Below are positions 1,410-31,917 of a stretch of DNA of 33,982 bases, in pieces; the stretch's first letter is position 1; every line of letters starts with the position of its first letter. This DNA comes from a virus. A model generated the notes under the pieces. The model ran no database searches. It worked only from the letters and a program-made list of their open reading frames with translations, and was not told where the DNA came from. The position numbers were made by a program, and so were the translations under genes. The DNA is taken from the IMG/VR virus record IMGVR_UViG_3300040806_001225, positions 1 through 33,982 of that record; one strand, given 5' to 3'.

Positions 1410-1979
1410 TCACCTTAAAAATTCTTCTGGATTTAGATCATATTTGATACTATCTACCTTATGTACACCCATCAAATACAATACATAACTTGCCACTGAA
1501 CTTCCTCTACCTACACCCCAAATTAAGTTATTGTTTCGAAGTGTATCAATAATGTATTTTAAACATTTTAAAACATCTATCATAGCATGTGATCTGTACA
1601 ATTCTAATTCTTTTTGCACACGTTCAGTTTCTGCAGGCGTTTTACATAAGTCTAACACATACTGTTCAATATCAATATCTTTATATTCTTGTGGAATAAA
1701 CCAATTTTCTCTATTACGTTGATCAAACCCATCACGATCTACGTCATCTTCTTGTGTATTAAACTTTTGAAAATTGTCTTTATTTAAATTAACAAATTGT
1801 TTATACTTCTTTATATCATCTGTATTTTTTACAATACAAGACTGAACATTTTCTTGTTTGTCTTGATATAACAGTTCAAGTATATTAGTTTCGTCTAAGA
1901 CTGTCTTGCCGTTAGAATTAACTTCTACCGCCGTCCAGGATGGTTGGTTTGAATTCTTTTTTAGGTGCATTTGATCCAT
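1410..1979 (-). CDS. DNA polymerase III alpha (C-family)-like fragment
   Basis: A 189-aa protein. Residues about 95-189 align by eye with the segment of bacterial DnaE that leads into the palm: IPQEYKDIDIEQYVLDLC, then a helix ending WGVGRGSSVASYVLYLMG (residues 154-171), then VHKVDSIKYDLNPEEFLR. DnaE has GPGRGSAAGSLVAYxLGIT, DPLxYxLxFERFLNP here. The protein stops exactly where DnaE continues into its PDxDxD catalytic aspartates, so it cannot be a polymerase on its own. Similar stand-alone proteins are, as I recall, found in cyanophages. The first 60 nt overlap the upstream gene in another frame; the ATG at 1979 or the one at 1970 (AGGATA upstream) could be the start. Confidence 0.7.
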   Translation of the reverse strand: MDQMHLKKNSNQPSWTAVEVNSNGKTVLDETNILELLYQDKQENVQSCIVKNTDDIKKYKQFVNLNKDNFQKFNTQEDDVDRDGFDQRNRENWFIPQEYKDIDIEQYVLDLCKTPAETERVQKELELYRSHAMIDVLKCLKYIIDTLRNNNLIWGVGRGSSVASYVLYLMGVHKVDSIKYDLNPEEFLR

Positions 1980-2550
1980 ATCCTAAATCTCTCCAACTCT
2001 TAGCACCTTGCCAGTATTTGTCTTCACCAATAACTTGATCAAAAGTTGCAGTGTCATTTCTTTCCCACCAAGGCTTTTCAATAATTTTTTTATTCCATTC
2101 ATCTGTATTCAAACTACTGTTTTCATAACTATCAGTATCTACTGTATATTGTACATTATCTCCTAACTTGCTGTCAAGAGTTATTTGTCCAAAATGGATA
2201 TATTTTCCTGATATTGCTTTGCATTTATGAAATAATGTAATCGCCAATAATTGATCATATGGATTGCCTGGTAACAAAATTTTGTTTACAGGCATTTTGA
2301 AAAAGACATTTTCTAAAGAACTTTTTGGTTGTAAAATTACACTGTTTTCGCACAGTTTGTGAAACAAATATTTTATTCTTTCGAAACTATTGTTTTGTAA
2401 TTTAATATCTGTTATTTTTGGTAGAAAACTTATTTTTACATTATAAGTATTAGGATACACAATGTCGTCTATTGCAACGATTGAATCAAATTGTGTTTCC
2501 CATGAAAAAAAGTTTGCTACTAAATCTTTATCGCTATTGTTTGTCAACAT
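1918..2550 (-). CDS. hypothetical protein
   Basis: A 210-aa protein I do not recognise. It is rich in Asn, Lys and aromatic residues, with a C-terminus containing KPWWERNDTATFDQ and AKSWRDLGYG and no membrane segment. It overlaps the small coiled-coil gene upstream by 17 nt and the DnaE-like gene downstream by about 60 nt, so the three are probably translated as one operon. The position between virion fibres and the DnaE-like fragment suggests a conserved phage gene, but no function can be assigned. Confidence 0.6.
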   Translation of the reverse strand: MLTNNSDKDLVANFFSWETQFDSIVAIDDIVYPNTYNVKISFLPKITDIKLQNNSFERIKYLFHKLCENSVILQPKSSLENVFFKMPVNKILLPGNPYDQLLAITLFHKCKAISGKYIHFGQITLDSKLGDNVQYTVDTDSYENSSLNTDEWNKKIIEKPWWERNDTATFDQVIGEDKYWQGAKSWRDLGYGSNAPKKEFKPTILDGGRS

Positions 2551-15246: not shown

Positions 15247-15570
15247 TTATACTCCAAAACTTTCGCCGCAACCGCATGACGAAGTTGCATTAGGGTTGCT
15301 TATATTCATATAAGAACCAAAAACTTCTTTCTTAAAGTCTATTGTTGTACCCGCTACATACAATAAACCTGCTCCATCAATAGCAAACTTGCCATTGGTT
15401 AAATCAAAAATCTCATCATCATCTGCAACTGCATCTACAGCGTCCCACTGATATGTAAAACCAGCACAACCACCGCCTTTAACACTTAATCTAACGTACT
15501 TTTTACCTTCTTTAGCAAGTACGCCTTCCATGTGTTCTTTTGCTGATTCAGTCACAGTTACTATGCTCAT
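15247..15570 (-). CDS. A-type iron-sulfur carrier (IscA/ErpA/HesB family)
   Basis: A 107-aa protein, the family's usual length. It holds the three Fe-S cysteines, C35 in VKGGGCAGFTYQW and C99/C101 in SSCGCGESFGV at the C-terminus. The N-terminal VTESAKEHMEGVLAKEG helix is also typical. Such proteins receive and deliver Fe-S clusters to apoproteins in the cytoplasm; phage copies may support Fe-S enzymes or virion assembly. It lies head-to-head with the plus-strand zinc-ribbon gene and immediately before the 2198-aa fibre gene. CATAAATA stands exactly 5 nt before its ATG and no Shine-Dalgarno is present, so a leaderless late transcript is predicted. Confidence 0.88.
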   Translation of the reverse strand: MSIVTVTESAKEHMEGVLAKEGKKYVRLSVKGGGCAGFTYQWDAVDAVADDDEIFDLTNGKFAIDGAGLLYVAGTTIDFKKEVFGSYMNISNPNATSSCGCGESFGV

Positions 15571-16318: not shown

Positions 16319-16882
16319 TTATTCTCCTGATTTGTCTTTAAGTGTAATTACTCCGCAGGCAACTCTTTCGCCTGCATTTCCGGTTTTGAGTGATTCTTCG
16401 TCTCCACCTTTACCCAAATCATCTTCATCTGAATGGATAACAATGGCTCGACCAACTATACTACGGTCTCCACTTAGATCTACTCTTTTTGCAACTATGG
16501 TGAAATCGGCTACGCCGGACGGGTTCGCTGTGATATTTCCTAAATCTCCCACATGCCCTTTATCAACATCACCGTGGTCTACACCATCGGGATCATAATG
16601 AGGGCCAGCAGAATCACAACCATTTGACAAATCACCAAATTCATGTATATGAAATCCGTGCTTACCAGGTTCTAAACCAGTAACTCTACCTTTAATTAGA
16701 GTTGGTTCACCAGGACGTTGCATAAACAGTATTTGACCTTTTACTTTATCTGTGTGGATTAGTTCTGATACAACAGCATAAACAGTTTCGTTTGCTTCTG
16801 TGAGTGCATTAACACTTTCACACCAGCACTGCTTCGCTTTTGTTCTCGGACAACTTGTTTGTGTTAGTTCCGTTATTTTCAT
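16319..16882 (-). CDS. sodC: Cu/Zn superoxide dismutase
   Basis: A 187-aa protein with all ligands of a Cu/Zn SOD visible: H78 and H80 (GFHIHEFGD), H95 (SAGPHYDP), H103, H110 and D113 (GHVGDLGN), H150 (IVIHSDEDDLG). The disulfide cysteines C89 and C176 and the catalytic Arg173 (GERVACGVI) are present too. It should convert superoxide to oxygen and hydrogen peroxide. About 30 residues precede the domain without a convincing signal peptide, so location is unclear. The start at 16882 is chosen over a GTG at 16906 because CATAAATA stands 5 nt before this ATG. It begins inside the 3' end of the UV endonuclease gene. Confidence 0.92.
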   Translation of the reverse strand: MKITELTQTSCPRTKAKQCWCESVNALTEANETVYAVVSELIHTDKVKGQILFMQRPGEPTLIKGRVTGLEPGKHGFHIHEFGDLSNGCDSAGPHYDPDGVDHGDVDKGHVGDLGNITANPSGVADFTIVAKRVDLSGDRSIVGRAIVIHSDEDDLGKGGDEESLKTGNAGERVACGVITLKDKSGE

Positions 16883-17906
16883 GTAGATATTTATGCAGAT
16901 TAGCACTAGCCAAATTTTTTGCCTTGCTTTCTACCATTATATCTGCATAGTCCCAAAAACTTAATGCCCAGTCATTAACTGCATTATTCCACATAAAATC
17001 ACTGTGAGCACGTAGTTTTTGCTTCTTATACCCTGTTTCTAATAGTGTTGTCATGTCAGGCTTAACATCTGTAGGAAAGTCTACAAGTAAGTCTTCACGT
17101 GATACGGAGTAGTGTATGACAGGACGAACACCACGCCAACTATCTACTATGCGAGCAAATCTATCGTCGGTGGGTTGAATGTATTCTCCACTATTGACCC
17201 AGTGATGGTGTATGTCAAGAACGAGAGCGAGGTCTTTTGCAAGTTCGAGGCTTGCGTCGATGCCCCAGGACATTTCGTCGTTTTCGATCGTGATAGTGTT
17301 TCTTGCTTCGGGCGAGAGTCTCTTGAGGGCGTCTTTGATGCCTTGTGGACCTTTTCTACCCGATATGTGTACATTGCATTTAAAGTCTTGATATGTGCGA
17401 CCGTATCCCATCCACCTGATGACATCCACATGATATTCAAACTCCTCTATACTTCTATTTACGATATCATCGTTATCGCTAGCCAGAACAGTAAACTGCC
17501 CAGGATGCATAGACAACCGTACGTCCAACGCTTTAGCACGTTTGCCGACGTTAGCGAAGTTCGACTCGCAATAATTGACCACGTCAGGTAACTTCCAAAA
17601 ATAGCACCAAGTAGGCTCAGTGTATACAGGAAGTACATCACTTCCGAGTCTAACCATTCTAAGTTCATTAGGTAAACCTCCTACGTAATTAATAAGGTTC
17701 ATAAACGACTGTATGTTATGAACCATAATGTCCCAAAGTCTTTGTTCAGCAACTTCCTTAGTCTGCCTGTTAAGCCAAGCAACAGTTGTGCTTCGTGTGT
17801 TAAGCGGACGTTGTATTTCTTCTAGTAACTTTTTCTTTTGTGTTTGATCAGGGTGCATGTACTTACATGCAAAGCCTATACGATTAGTCTGGGTTTGAGA
17901 ATTCAT
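16818..17906 (-). CDS. uvsE: UV damage endonuclease (UvsE/UVDE family)
   Basis: A 362-aa TIM-barrel protein of normal family length. Motifs in order: RIGFACKY (9-16), VRLGSDV (95-101), RLSMHPGQF (140-148), NVHISG (188-193), TIENDE (216-221), LVLDIHHH (238-245), VIHYS (273-277) and RAHSDF (309-314), which supply the His, Glu and Asp metal ligands. Family members nick DNA 5' to cyclobutane dimers, 6-4 photoproducts and abasic sites, a useful repair route for a surface-ocean phage. Its first 23 nt overlap the phosphomannomutase gene, which suggests coupled translation. The last 60 nt host the SOD promoter and start. In T4, DenV does a similar task with an unrelated fold. Confidence 0.92.
   Translation of the reverse strand: MNSQTQTNRIGFACKYMHPDQTQKKKLLEEIQRPLNTRSTTVAWLNRQTKEVAEQRLWDIMVHNIQSFMNLINYVGGLPNELRMVRLGSDVLPVYTEPTWCYFWKLPDVVNYCESNFANVGKRAKALDVRLSMHPGQFTVLASDNDDIVNRSIEEFEYHVDVIRWMGYGRTYQDFKCNVHISGRKGPQGIKDALKRLSPEARNTITIENDEMSWGIDASLELAKDLALVLDIHHHWVNSGEYIQPTDDRFARIVDSWRGVRPVIHYSVSREDLLVDFPTDVKPDMTTLLETGYKKQKLRAHSDFMWNNAVNDWALSFWDYADIMVESKAKNLASANLHKYLHENNGTNTNKLSENKSEAVLV
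16888..16895 (-). promoter_or_regulatory. T4-type late promoter abutting AUG (leaderless), CATAAATA
   Basis: CATAAATA, then TCTAC, then the SOD ATG at 16882. It lies inside the coding end of the UV endonuclease gene. The 15-nt block ATAAATATCTACATG is identical to that before the gene at 25863. Confidence 0.65.
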
Positions 17907-18606
17907 CTTTTAATATTTTCCAAGTATCCTTATAGTTCTTTATATTATAACAGAAGCCAAGATCCTTGTCAAGTATAACTTTCTTCAATGGATAATCATT
18001 TCCTTTTGGATTAGTTTTATCTCCAAAAAACTGTAAAATATCATTGTGCGGATCAAAGTCTTTGATGATTTGGCTTTTATCGTTGCCTTTTTCAAAAATA
18101 TCTAATCCTGTTTCACCACCCACTACTGCTTGTAGATTTGGAAATTCTTTATTAAATTGTTTTGCTAGTTTGTTTCGTTCGTTATGTTCTTGATCATATT
18201 TTACATAAAACTTGCGTTCGCCCAGTGTAGCATTACGTCCAACTATACTAAAATTAACCATGCCAGGACGTTCCTCAATATGTAATCCTGTTCTTAAAAC
18301 AAAACGGCTTTCATCTAATTTAATGTTTAACCATTTACGTGCATCATCAGGCAACGTCCAATCTGTTGTGTAGATATTTTTACCATGTTCGTAAACATCA
18401 CTGCCCGAACAATTATATACACGTTCTACACTTTCACAAAGTTTTTTACCTAGTTGTTCTACTGTTTTAGGATAGTCACTACCTGTGACAAGATAAACAT
18501 AGTTTTCTTTTGTAAAATTTAAAAACCAATCGTGGAATTTAGGATCTATTTTTTGTCTGCTTGGTGTGAGAGTACCGTCGACGTCGAATATAAATCTATA
18601 TACCAT
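17884..18606 (-). CDS. eukaryote-type phosphomannomutase (HAD superfamily, PMM2-like)
   Basis: A 240-aa protein that follows human PMM2 rather than the bacterial AlgC/ManB family. Motifs: FDVDGTLTPSRQKI (7-20, with nucleophile D8 and acid D10), TGSDY (41-45), RPGMVNFSIVGR (113-124, cf. RNGMLNVSPIGR), a GGETGLDIF block (163-171) and FFGDKTNPKGNDY (193-205, cf. FFGDKTMPGGND). It should interconvert mannose-6-phosphate and mannose-1-phosphate, the entry to GDP-mannose. Neighbours are a DxD glycosyltransferase and two 2OG oxygenases. It starts 8 nt after the upstream stop, with a weak ribosome site, and overlaps the UV endonuclease gene. Sucrose-phosphatase-like HADs are the other possibility but fit less well. 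Confidence 0.85.
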   Translation of the reverse strand: MVYRFIFDVDGTLTPSRQKIDPKFHDWFLNFTKENYVYLVTGSDYPKTVEQLGKKLCESVERVYNCSGSDVYEHGKNIYTTDWTLPDDARKWLNIKLDESRFVLRTGLHIEERPGMVNFSIVGRNATLGERKFYVKYDQEHNERNKLAKQFNKEFPNLQAVVGGETGLDIFEKGNDKSQIIKDFDPHNDILQFFGDKTNPKGNDYPLKKVILDKDLGFCYNIKNYKDTWKILKDEFSNPD

Positions 18607-20643: not shown

Positions 20644-21093
20644 TTAAACCTCATAGATTGCTGAGTTTGCACCGTGTTCTGCACATTCTACTTTAACGCA
20701 ATAACAACGATTATCTGTTTTTTCTCTAATTAGTTTGTCTGCAAAATTAAATGCATGTTCTGCAAACTTCTCTGCACCAACACCGTCAAACACACGAATC
20801 TCTGCTAGTCCTTTTCTTTCAAGATCACGCATAGTTCGCATCTCTGGATCTGCTGAATCAACTACAACTTTGTGATCAAAACTGTCTTCAAGCCAAGCCT
20901 TCAAAGGTTTTAGTCCTCCAAAGTCTACTGCCCAGTTCTTGTTGTCTAGTTCATCACAACCAAATGTAAATGTAAATGCTAGACTGTAACCGTGTAGTAA
21001 GTGACAGTGTGAATGATCTGCATTGGGTTGTCTAAAGACTGCCGAAAGACCAATGTTGTGTCCATAATGTTTTGTACTTAAATGCCTTGCCAT
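20644..21093 (-). CDS. 6-carboxy/6-pyruvoyl-tetrahydropterin synthase-like (QueD-like)
   Basis: A 149-aa protein of the T-fold PTPS/QueD family. Visible: GLSAVFRQPNADHSHCHLLHGYS (split at about 15-37, catalytic-type C30, His34), VDFGGLKPLKAWLEDSFDHK (56-75) and GAEKFAEHAF. In QueD the zinc is held by three His (FSAxH and HGH). Here the first position is Phe20 and the third is Tyr36, so the metal site is altered, although other His (27, 29, 31) lie close. QueD makes 6-carboxytetrahydropterin for queuosine and deazaguanine synthesis; no other deazaguanine gene is visible in the window. GGAG precedes the ATG. Confidence 0.75.
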   Translation of the reverse strand: MARHLSTKHYGHNIGLSAVFRQPNADHSHCHLLHGYSLAFTFTFGCDELDNKNWAVDFGGLKPLKAWLEDSFDHKVVVDSADPEMRTMRDLERKGLAEIRVFDGVGAEKFAEHAFNFADKLIREKTDNRCYCVKVECAEHGANSAIYEV

Positions 21094-23508: not shown

Positions 23509-23669
23509 TATAGTTCTTCCGCAATACCTAGAATTTCTGCGGCTAAAAGTGCTCCAGGTAACCACATAATGTTTGCACCTAGTAATACTGCTACACAACC
23601 TGCAATACGTAAACCACTCTTTACAATACTAATGTAAAAATGTTTACGACTTGGATCTACTGGTTCCAT
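23508..23669 (-). CDS. small membrane protein (53 aa)
   Basis: A 53-aa protein: short polar N-terminus ([20 protein letters not shown]) and one hydrophobic stretch (about residues 20-44: RIAGCVAVLLGANIMWLPGALLAA divided over the membrane). Its ATG overlaps the ClpP stop codon (TAATG) and its own TAA overlaps the ATG of the next gene (TAATG), so it is coupled on both sides; AGGAGAG is the ribosome site. It is real by context. Holin-like size, but no further evidence for that. Confidence 0.65.
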   Translation of the reverse strand: MEPVDPSRKHFYISIVKSGLRIAGCVAVLLGANIMWLPGALLAAEILGIAEEL

Positions 23670-24262
23670 TAATCTCTCCTTTTAAAGATTTCATCAATTA
23701 GTCCATAGTCTAATGCTTCTTGAGCAGTCATAAACTTATCACGTTCCATATCATTGCTTAATTCTTCAAAGGTTTTGCCTTTGCTGTTATGCTGAACGTA
23801 TACGTTAGTTAATTCTTTTTTCAACTTGATAATTTCTTCTGCGTGAATTTGAATATCAGTTGCTTGTCCACTAGCACCACCACTTGGTTGGTGAATCATG
23901 TGTCTTGCGTGTGGTAACATAAAACGTTTGCCTGGCTCTCCTGCTTGTGCTAATAATGAACCCATTGAGCAAGCCTGACCCATTACATACGTGTACACGG
24001 GAGATTTGATGTACTGCATGGTATCATAGATAGCCATACCTGAACTTACTACACCTCCTGGTGAGTTAATATAAAAGTGAATTGGCTTTGATCCACTATC
24101 TGATTCTAACAAAATTAACTGTGCTGTTAGACTGTGTGCAACTCCATCGTGCACCGGACCGTTTAGAAAAACGATACGTTCTTTAAGCAAACGACTAAAA
24201 ATGTCATATGCTCTTTCACCGTCATGTGATTTTTCAACCACCATAGGTACTAGATTGCTCAT
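23669..24262 (-). CDS. clpP: ClpP protease, canonical proteolytic subunit
   Basis: A 197-aa protein with the full catalytic triad: S99 ([10 protein letters not shown]), H124 (HMIHQPSGG) and D175 (ERDKFMTA). It also has the INSPGG strand (65-70), the [13 protein letters not shown] loop (125-137) and the start NLVPMVVE, as in alphaproteobacterial ClpP. It would form the tetradecameric chamber that works with ClpA/ClpX from the host. The start lacks a long propeptide. It overlaps the upstream 428-aa gene (TAATG) and has GGAG before the ATG. Closeness to bacterial ClpP suggests acquisition from a host, and it differs strongly from the second ClpP at 31351-31917. Confidence 0.92.
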
Positions 24263-29421: not shown

Positions 29422-29512
29422 TGGTAGCAGGACCCGGATTCGAACCGAGATTAGCCAATTATCTGTTGCTACGGAGTATAAACCCGCTGTTTTACCGTTA
29501 AACTACCCTGCC
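29422..29512 (-). tRNA. class II tRNA with apparent anticodon UAU, identity uncertain
   Basis: 91 nt with encoded CCA. Acceptor GGCAGGG/TCCTGCT (two G-T pairs), D arm GTTT-AACGGTA-AAAC, anticodon arm GCGGG-TTTATAC-TCCGT and T arm CTCGG-TTCGAAT-CCGGG. Between anticodon and T stems there are 21 nt (AGCAACAGATAATTGGCTAAT) that can fold as a variable arm (AGCAA with TTGGCT). Long variable arms belong to Leu, Ser and bacterial Tyr, none of which uses UAU. The Leu tRNA follows 12 nt downstream. Confidence 0.7.
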
Positions 29513-31350: not shown

Positions 31351-31917
31351 CTATAATATATGATCTGCTACACCAAGATCAATCATCTGTTTAGCGGTGT
31401 AGTATTGGTCGCTTGGGTTTTTGATGAATTCATTGCGAACTTTTTGTATTGTCATACCCGTAGCATCCTTTAAAATATTTAAGCATCTAAGTTCACAGTT
31501 TTGATTTTCTTTCATCTGTGCTCTCATGTCGTGCATTTTAGATTCCATTGAATCACTATGTTGATGATTCATGCTACCTGCATTTTTACCAATGTAACGT
31601 TCTCCTTGTTTTCCACTGGCAAAAATTAAAAATCCAGCACTCATAACAGCACCAATACCTACAGTAGAAATATTGTGATAACTGTTCTTCATAACATCTA
31701 TAAGAGCAAAGGCTTCATATAGATCTCCGCCATATGTGTTGATGTATAATTTAAGTGTGCGTTTTGGTTTCTTCTGTAGGTTTGCTGAAAGAATCCATTT
31801 AATACATTCACTAACATTGTCATTAGAAATATCACCACTAAGATAGTGAATATCATTATCTAGTAGACTTTTGTCTATTGCATCGCTGGCTGTCCAATTT
31901 TCGTATTTTGTAGGCAT
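31351..31917 (-). CDS. ClpP-like serine protease, divergent (second copy)
   Basis: A 188-aa protein with a ClpP fold but little sequence resemblance to the copy at 23669-24262. The triad is recognisable: S93 (GAVMSAGFLIFASGK), H118 (GSMNHQHSDS) and D170 (NPSDQYYTAKQM). INTYGGDLYEA takes the place of the INSPGG strand. Related phage ClpP-like proteases cleave virion scaffolds or form host-independent chambers; here it is a plausible prohead or regulatory protease, but a role in host ClpP interference is also possible. No ribosome site is present; see the nested promoters just upstream. Confidence 0.8.
   Translation of the reverse strand: MPTKYENWTASDAIDKSLLDNDIHYLSGDISNDNVSECIKWILSANLQKKPKRTLKLYINTYGGDLYEAFALIDVMKNSYHNISTVGIGAVMSAGFLIFASGKQGERYIGKNAGSMNHQHSDSMESKMHDMRAQMKENQNCELRCLNILKDATGMTIQKVRNEFIKNPSDQYYTAKQMIDLGVADHIL

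Follow-up and report, generated by a model that had tools for sequence, protein, structure and literature searches.

A tRNA gene on the minus strand of a phage genome fragment, at positions 29422-29512 of the 33,982 nt stretch of DNA analysed here (the window), has two anticodon-type arms in tandem, the second of which carries the cognate anticodon, and of this structural description we are all but certain. The same arrangement recurs in tRNAs with the anticodons UCA and CUA, where the second arm carries a Trp-type and a Gln-type anticodon. Our reading, to which we would give a probability of about 0.8, is that the first arm (ASL1) would decode on the ribosome whilst the second (ASL2) would present the cognate anticodon to the synthetase, the two arms swapping at a weakened junction.

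The gene was called as tRNA-Ile(tat) by ARAGORN and matches the Rfam tRNA family RF00005 with 54.5 bits (E=3e-9, against a gathering score of 29), which bears out the original prediction of a tRNA with a UAU anticodon and 21 nt ahead of the T stem, the strand being minus. From the acceptor the order begins with a D arm (29489-29503, GUUU-AACGGUA-AAAC) of class I type, with a 4-bp stem, a 7-nt loop and A15, placed by RF00005 and by the 15-48 pairing of the family. Next comes ASL1, the putative decoding arm (29471-29487, GCGGG-UUUAUAC-UCCGU; ARAGORN, RF00005 and family statistics), with the UAU anticodon at 29478-29480 in the loop UUUAUAC, U33, C38 and a weak G27-U43 pair. The 21 nt from the 43-end of this stem to the T stem hold ASL2 (29454-29470, (AG)CAA-CAGAUAA-UUG(GC)), which was recognised by direct reading, invariance and covariation and has C29-G41 and A38; in its 7-nt loop CAGAUAA the triplet GAU, the ordinary Ile anticodon, stands exactly at 34-36 (29461-29463). 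The ASL2 stem has the length of five pairs, of which three are formed. It is followed by the 4 nt UAAU (29450-29453), a short class I-like variable loop whose U48 would pair with A15, as judged from spacing and 15-48 covariation, and by the T arm (29433-29449, CUCGG-UUCGAAU-CCGGG; RF00005). Discriminator A73 (29425) was read directly, as was the CCA encoded in the gene at 29422-29424. As the spacing counted from the T arm puts ASL2 at the normal anticodon position, it is ASL1 and the linker that constitute the insert. Two anticodon-type hairpins, the second with its cognate anticodon at 34-36, are what we define as a tandem-anticodon tRNA.

The extra nucleotides had been taken originally for a long variable arm of the kind found in Leu, Ser and Tyr tRNAs, and the second anticodon stem-loop that they form had been missed. 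The D arm of class I, the spacer of 4 nt and the pair 15-48 place the window tRNA outside the Leu/Ser/Tyr class II group, and with the anticodon UAU it is no tRNA-Ile2 (CAU) either. The suggestion that a tRNA of Leu or Ser type had been recoded to AUA finds no support in view of the D arm, A73, the 7-nt loop with its invariant GAU and the 15-48 pair, present in 80/80 of the relatives listed, whilst that of an unusual Ile tRNA with an insertion fits the GAU-bearing second arm, the class I D arm and A73. A fold with a Leu or Ser anticodon was not found, and a sequencing error is ruled out by relatives in many phages. Bacterial Ile determinants as given in Table 1 of PMC9976931 include C29-G41, G34, A35, U36, A37, A38 and A73; from the set in that table the window tRNA has A73, U12-A23 and, in ASL2, all those of the anticodon arm, and lacks the minor determinant C4-G69, having A-U there. 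Thermodynamic folding of this tRNA was uninformative (z=-0.32), and the predicted minimum-energy fold leaves the ASL2 loop as drawn unopened.

The window, with 37% GC, is a 34-kb piece of a tailed phage genome, in which a tRNA-Leu(UAA) gene adjoins the tandem gene and a dCMP deaminase-like gene lies nearby. AUA is used 14 times per 1000 codons in the window (22% of Ile codons), in keeping with the earlier proposal that a UAU tRNA would be useful. Elsewhere the window contains a copper/zinc superoxide dismutase gene (16319-16906, minus strand; PF00080, E=2.5e-47) within what is a phage genome, and unusual auxiliary genes on the minus strand at 16818-17906, 15247-15570, 20644-21093 and 17884-18606, whose products are a UvdE-type UV endonuclease, an iron-sulphur cluster protein, PTPS and a phosphomannomutase-like protein. 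There are also two ClpP-like proteins (23669-24262 and 31351-31917, minus strand), one matching a phage head maturation protease and one a Clp protease. At 1410-2550 (minus strand) an ORF whose 189-aa product matches a DNA polymerase family overlaps a second ORF in another frame, the pair possibly being a split polymerase.

Homologues of the window tRNA, which the original prediction had proposed to look for, are numerous. BLAST located its core of anticodon and ASL2 in 43 Vibrio phage records, with 89% identity, as well as in Acinetobacter phage qsb1, with 78%; in qsb1 an A-U pair within ASL2 is changed to G-C; three other IMG/VR contigs also hold the core, and the BLAST relatives are mostly annotated as tRNA-Ile. 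Searches of plasmids and of E. coli genomes gave no match to the tandem tRNA. Pattern scanning raised the number of distinct relatives to at least about 80. An unbiased scan of IMG/VR, with a pattern that fixed the D arm and UUAUA only and was silent on everything downstream, yielded at least 96 distinct UAU tRNAs, which ARAGORN divides into 23 of class I and 73 with the length of class II, and GAU was found in a second 7-nt loop in 73/73 of the distinct long UAU tRNAs among the matches listed. As about a quarter of the UAU tRNAs among those matches are plain class I, the second arm is not always needed. When the scan is combined with the other searches, all 80 distinct long UAU tRNAs listed have AGAU in the arm, always in a 7-nt loop (CAGAUUA in 42, CAGAUAA in 30, others in 8), and AGAU mostly lies 11 nt from the T stem, the spacing being constant in 74/80. 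From all sources GAU occupies loop positions 34-36 in 121/121 long UAU tRNAs, a total that includes copies from a genome scan picked by a pattern containing CAGATNA, which are hence not evidence for GAU.

The stem of the second hairpin shows compensating changes. For its three inner pairs, scored over 37 distinct Ile ASL2 segments, 111/111 cells hold a standard pair, compensatory double changes occur in 36 cells against 9.0 in shuffles, and covariation reaches 0.875 against 0.149 for shuffles and at most 0.194 for slid controls. The pair C29-G41 is conserved in 79/80 although the pairs beside it are free to vary, with position 30-40 taking all four Watson-Crick forms, and the stems are often only 3-4 bp long. 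A38 is present in ASL2 in 74/80, A73 in 78/80 and C-G at 4-69 in 56/80; U12-A23 is found in 80/80, imposed by the scan pattern and so not evidence. The Levitt pair 15-48 (A-U in 63, G-C in 17, 80/80 in total) involves the nucleotide before the T stem. A33 is found in all Ile ASL2 sequences, and A38 is not strict in ordinary phage GAU tRNAs (35/50). For bacterial IleRS t6A37 ranks as a strong determinant (PMC9976931), and position 37 of the Ile ASL2 is U, not A, in about half.

If synthetase recognition has moved to ASL2, ASL1 would be expected to lose A38, and among the matches listed A38 is retained in ASL1 in only 9/73 tandem tRNAs against 14/23 class I UAU tRNAs (p=1e-5). There is no such relaxation of C29-G41, for which ASL1 of the tandem tRNAs does not differ from class I UAU tRNAs (p=0.62). 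The pair 27-43, which in ASL1 is the one nearest to the junction, is Watson-Crick in 80% of class I tRNAs but in only 7% of the Ile family (p=3e-60) and 8% of the Gln family (p=5e-8), the figure for the Trp family being 47%; its weakness fits a labile junction.

The first UCA case was met among the long-arm controls (L096, 5558-5653), with a second loop GUCCAAA that is near the Trp loop CUCCAAA. A targeted scan for UCA tandem tRNAs gave 18 distinct sequences, and in these Trp determinants are present in the tRNA body (A1-U72 in 17/18, G73 in 18/18). A scan blind to the second loop listed 28 UCA tRNAs, 8 of class I and 20 of about 95 nt, and among these matches CCA stands in the second loop of 20/20 of the long ones, including L318, whose loop GUCCAUA could not have been selected by the earlier targeted pattern. 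In all, some 20 opal tRNAs besides that of L096 have a second Trp-type CCA hairpin (L217, L222, L232 and L318 among them), and the covariation of the ASL2 stem in this family is 0.810 against 0.242.

A third scan, also blind to ASL2, was for tRNAs that combine a long arm with a D arm of class I, whatever their anticodon as long as it lacks A35, and in 12/12 of the distinct CUA tRNAs listed the second loop has CUG, a Gln anticodon, at 34-36. These amber tRNAs with a Gln-type hairpin include those at L354 5384-5472 and L381 1488-1578 and others in L338, L342 and L351. U33 is mostly kept in the ASL2 of both the Trp and the Gln family. For all long-arm tRNAs collected the rule is that UAU goes with GAU, UCA with CCA and CUA with CUG, in a table that includes loci fetched by patterns naming the triplet, the unbiased counts listed being 73, 20 and 12. 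In long-arm Leu, Ser, Tyr, Asn, Thr, Gln, Gly, Cys, His and Trp(CCA) tRNAs no recurrent cognate triplet was seen. The long arms of phage Asn, Gln, Thr, Gly and other tRNAs (L138, L142, L145, L149, L355, L357, L364, L327 and L209) are mostly closed by ordinary tetraloops and represent a different enlargement of class I tRNAs. In the tRNA-Gly(UCC) of Vibrio phage Thalassa (L004, 4198-4284) a GAAA tetraloop caps the long variable arm.

Several of the CUA tandem tRNAs sit in TAG-recoded phages, the published phAss-1 among them. When TAG is opened, ORF coverage climbs from 0.44 to 0.92 in L354, from 0.45 to 0.83 in L351 and from 0.54 to 0.82 in L379; with TGA opened instead, the gain is from 0.59 to 0.96 in L267 and from 0.52 to 0.79 in L294, whilst some UCA and CUA tandem phages gave no clear recoding within the stretch examined. 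At TGA sites W is the commonest aligned residue (13/46 sites) and 12 align to a stop; at TAG sites Q is the commonest residue at 3/31 aligned sites, too few homologous sites to assign Gln, and a search for relatives to enlarge this test returned only the query's own contig. On the 133-kb contig L354, possibly a fragment, the tandem tRNA is the sole CUA tRNA detected, ARAGORN having listed 23 of the 27 tRNAs found by Rfam. In phAss-1, for which TAG has been inferred to be Gln (PMC10607447), the tandem CUA/CUG tRNA (L381, 91 nt, second loop CUCUGAA) is accompanied by a class I CUA tRNA. For two crAss-like phages metaproteomics has demonstrated that TAG is read as Gln (PMC9523058).

In the adaptor logic of tRNAs one anticodon couples decoding to charging, so that a suppressor tRNA, or one that reads AUA, is usually cut off from its synthetase. 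The standard IleRS, TrpRS and GlnRS should reject or poorly charge tRNAs with anticodons for AUA, UGA and UAG because these enzymes read the anticodon; charging by each of them would be recovered if a second arm supplied the cognate anticodon. In the window tRNA ASL1, with UAU and U33, would read AUA on the ribosome, and the CAGAUAA arm would mimic the anticodon arm of tRNA-Ile(GAU), giving the host IleRS the determinants missing from the UAU loop and allowing charging with Ile without the lysidine enzyme TilS; A33 should bar this arm from decoding. In the same way a UCA+CCA tRNA would read UGA and be charged with Trp, and a CUA+CUG tRNA would read UAG and be charged with Gln. An exchange of the arms is proposed because only a single arm at a time can sit under the D stem: ASL2 would be there in the synthetase-bound form and ASL1 in the ribosome-bound form, in which ASL2 would be held in the manner of a long variable arm. 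We infer the charging through ASL2, the exchange and a benefit from the arrangement on the strength of sequence comparison. Kissing of the two loops (UAU with AUA) was considered and rejected as not general, since AUA occurs only in the CAGAUAA variants.

It would seem quite unlikely that both arms decode (AUA by ASL1, and AUC/AUU, UGG or CAG by ASL2) or that ASL2 alone does so. ASL2 does occupy the place expected of a class I anticodon arm, and the U33 retained in most Trp and Gln second arms would suit decoding, but the Ile ASL2 always has A33, and U33 is required for the U-turn in elongator tRNAs. Moreover ordinary GAU or CCA tRNAs are already encoded on the phage contigs L096 and L354, and recoding of TAG and TGA demands decoding by ASL1. 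Phage tRNAs often counter anticodon nucleases, and an additional anticodon loop, being exposed, would naturally act as bait for those of the host or for another tRNA-binding factor; we nevertheless think it very improbable that ASL2 is a decoy or shield and not an identity element, as neither a cognate match nor the Ile-specific C29-G41 would be needed, yet the second triplet is always cognate and confined to tRNAs whose anticodon the synthetase should reject.

A tRNA of Leu, Ser or Tyr type that bears UAU and puts the wrong amino acid at AUA, as nematode nev-tRNAs do, has in its favour the class II length, an A73 that would suit LeuRS and the leucylation in vitro of the long-arm nev-tRNA-Ile(UAU) (PMC4300185). 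The D arm and the 15-48 pair are however those of class I, the 7-nt loop with invariant GAU is unlike the Leu, Ser and Tyr arms of the same loci, and the rule holds in the Trp and Gln families with the matching synthetase identities, so that we regard such mischarging as extremely doubtful. Least probable of all, and barely to be entertained, is intron-like removal of one arm after transcription. A normal class I tRNA would remain if either arm were deleted, and in DNA alignments some ordinary tRNA-Trp genes align to the UCA tandem in two pieces; against removal stand the lack of group I intron features at such a size and junction lengths that vary by several nt with no splice motif, and we know of no tRNA splicing endonuclease in bacterial hosts.

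Tandem Ile tRNAs are also found in bacteria. One scan of genome contigs, with a pattern requiring CAGATNA, gave 42, with isolated copies in Xanthomonas, Stenotrophomonas, Pseudoxanthomonas, Microbulbifer and Marinobacter (L407, L390, L402, L425, L387 and others among the Xanthomonadaceae, Microbulbifer and Marinobacter), and no conserved synteny was seen around the bacterial copies. The idea that the carriers lack TilS is ruled out, TilS scoring over the cut-off in 15/16 bacterial genomes with a tandem Ile tRNA; as a CAU tRNA-Ile2 is also likely in most of them, the bacterial tandem tRNA would be an addition and not a replacement. In Stenotrophomonas (L407) a nearby 594-aa ORF resembles a site-specific recombinase by eye, and the tandem tRNA gene there may be an integration site.

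With somewhat less assurance than we attach to the exchange of arms, we consider it probable that decoding and identity anticodons placed on separate stem-loops, which alternate at a weakened junction, form a general architecture that arose in or spread through phages and some bacteria, one that would let an anticodon-reading synthetase charge a tRNA for an otherwise rejected codon (AUA, UGA or UAG) and would explain part of the stop-codon recoding of phages. A two-anticodon tRNA, if the reading is true, would uncouple decoding from charging and would explain how the UAG-Gln and UGA-Trp tRNAs of recoded phages are charged by standard host enzymes. If confirmed it would represent a novel means of reassigning or rescuing codons and a new evolutionary route for codon reassignment, and it would offer a simple suppressor-tRNA design for genetic code engineering.

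The tandem-anticodon tRNA is apparently new, as a literature search, with most subscription papers and preprints outside its reach, found no description of a tRNA with two anticodon arms, though there may be an earlier report in preprints or subscription papers. The genes themselves have in part been published, since the 91-nt CUA tRNA of phAss-1 is one of them; the words "anticodon" and "variable" are both absent from PMC10607447, and the available part of PMC12386605, on the TCA and CTA tRNAs of Lera phage, mentions no second loop. The nematode nev-tRNA-Ile(UAU) likewise combines a long arm with a UAU anticodon, but it accepts leucine in vitro, and the part of PMC4300185 available does not mention an anticodon mimic; a nev-like misreading tRNA would have a Leu-type body, and the body of the window tRNA is of class I type. 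Class II tRNAs (Leu, Ser and bacterial Tyr) are about as long as the tandem tRNAs and, like them, have an additional arm following the anticodon stem, whereas the tandem extra loop is of 7 nt with a fixed cognate anticodon and the spacer to the T stem is a class I variable loop of 4-5 nt. The tRNA-Ile(UAU) of Mycoplasma mobile and Lactobacilli are ordinary class I tRNAs served by an adapted IleRS. In these too UAU reads AUA with no lysidine; the tandem family differs in its second Ile-type arm and in an ASL1 that mostly lacks A38. Finally, tRNA-Ile2(CAU) with the lysidine made by TilS solves the same problem of decoding AUA whilst being charged with Ile, there by modification of C34, and in the tandem tRNA, which has no CAU, apparently by a second anticodon arm.
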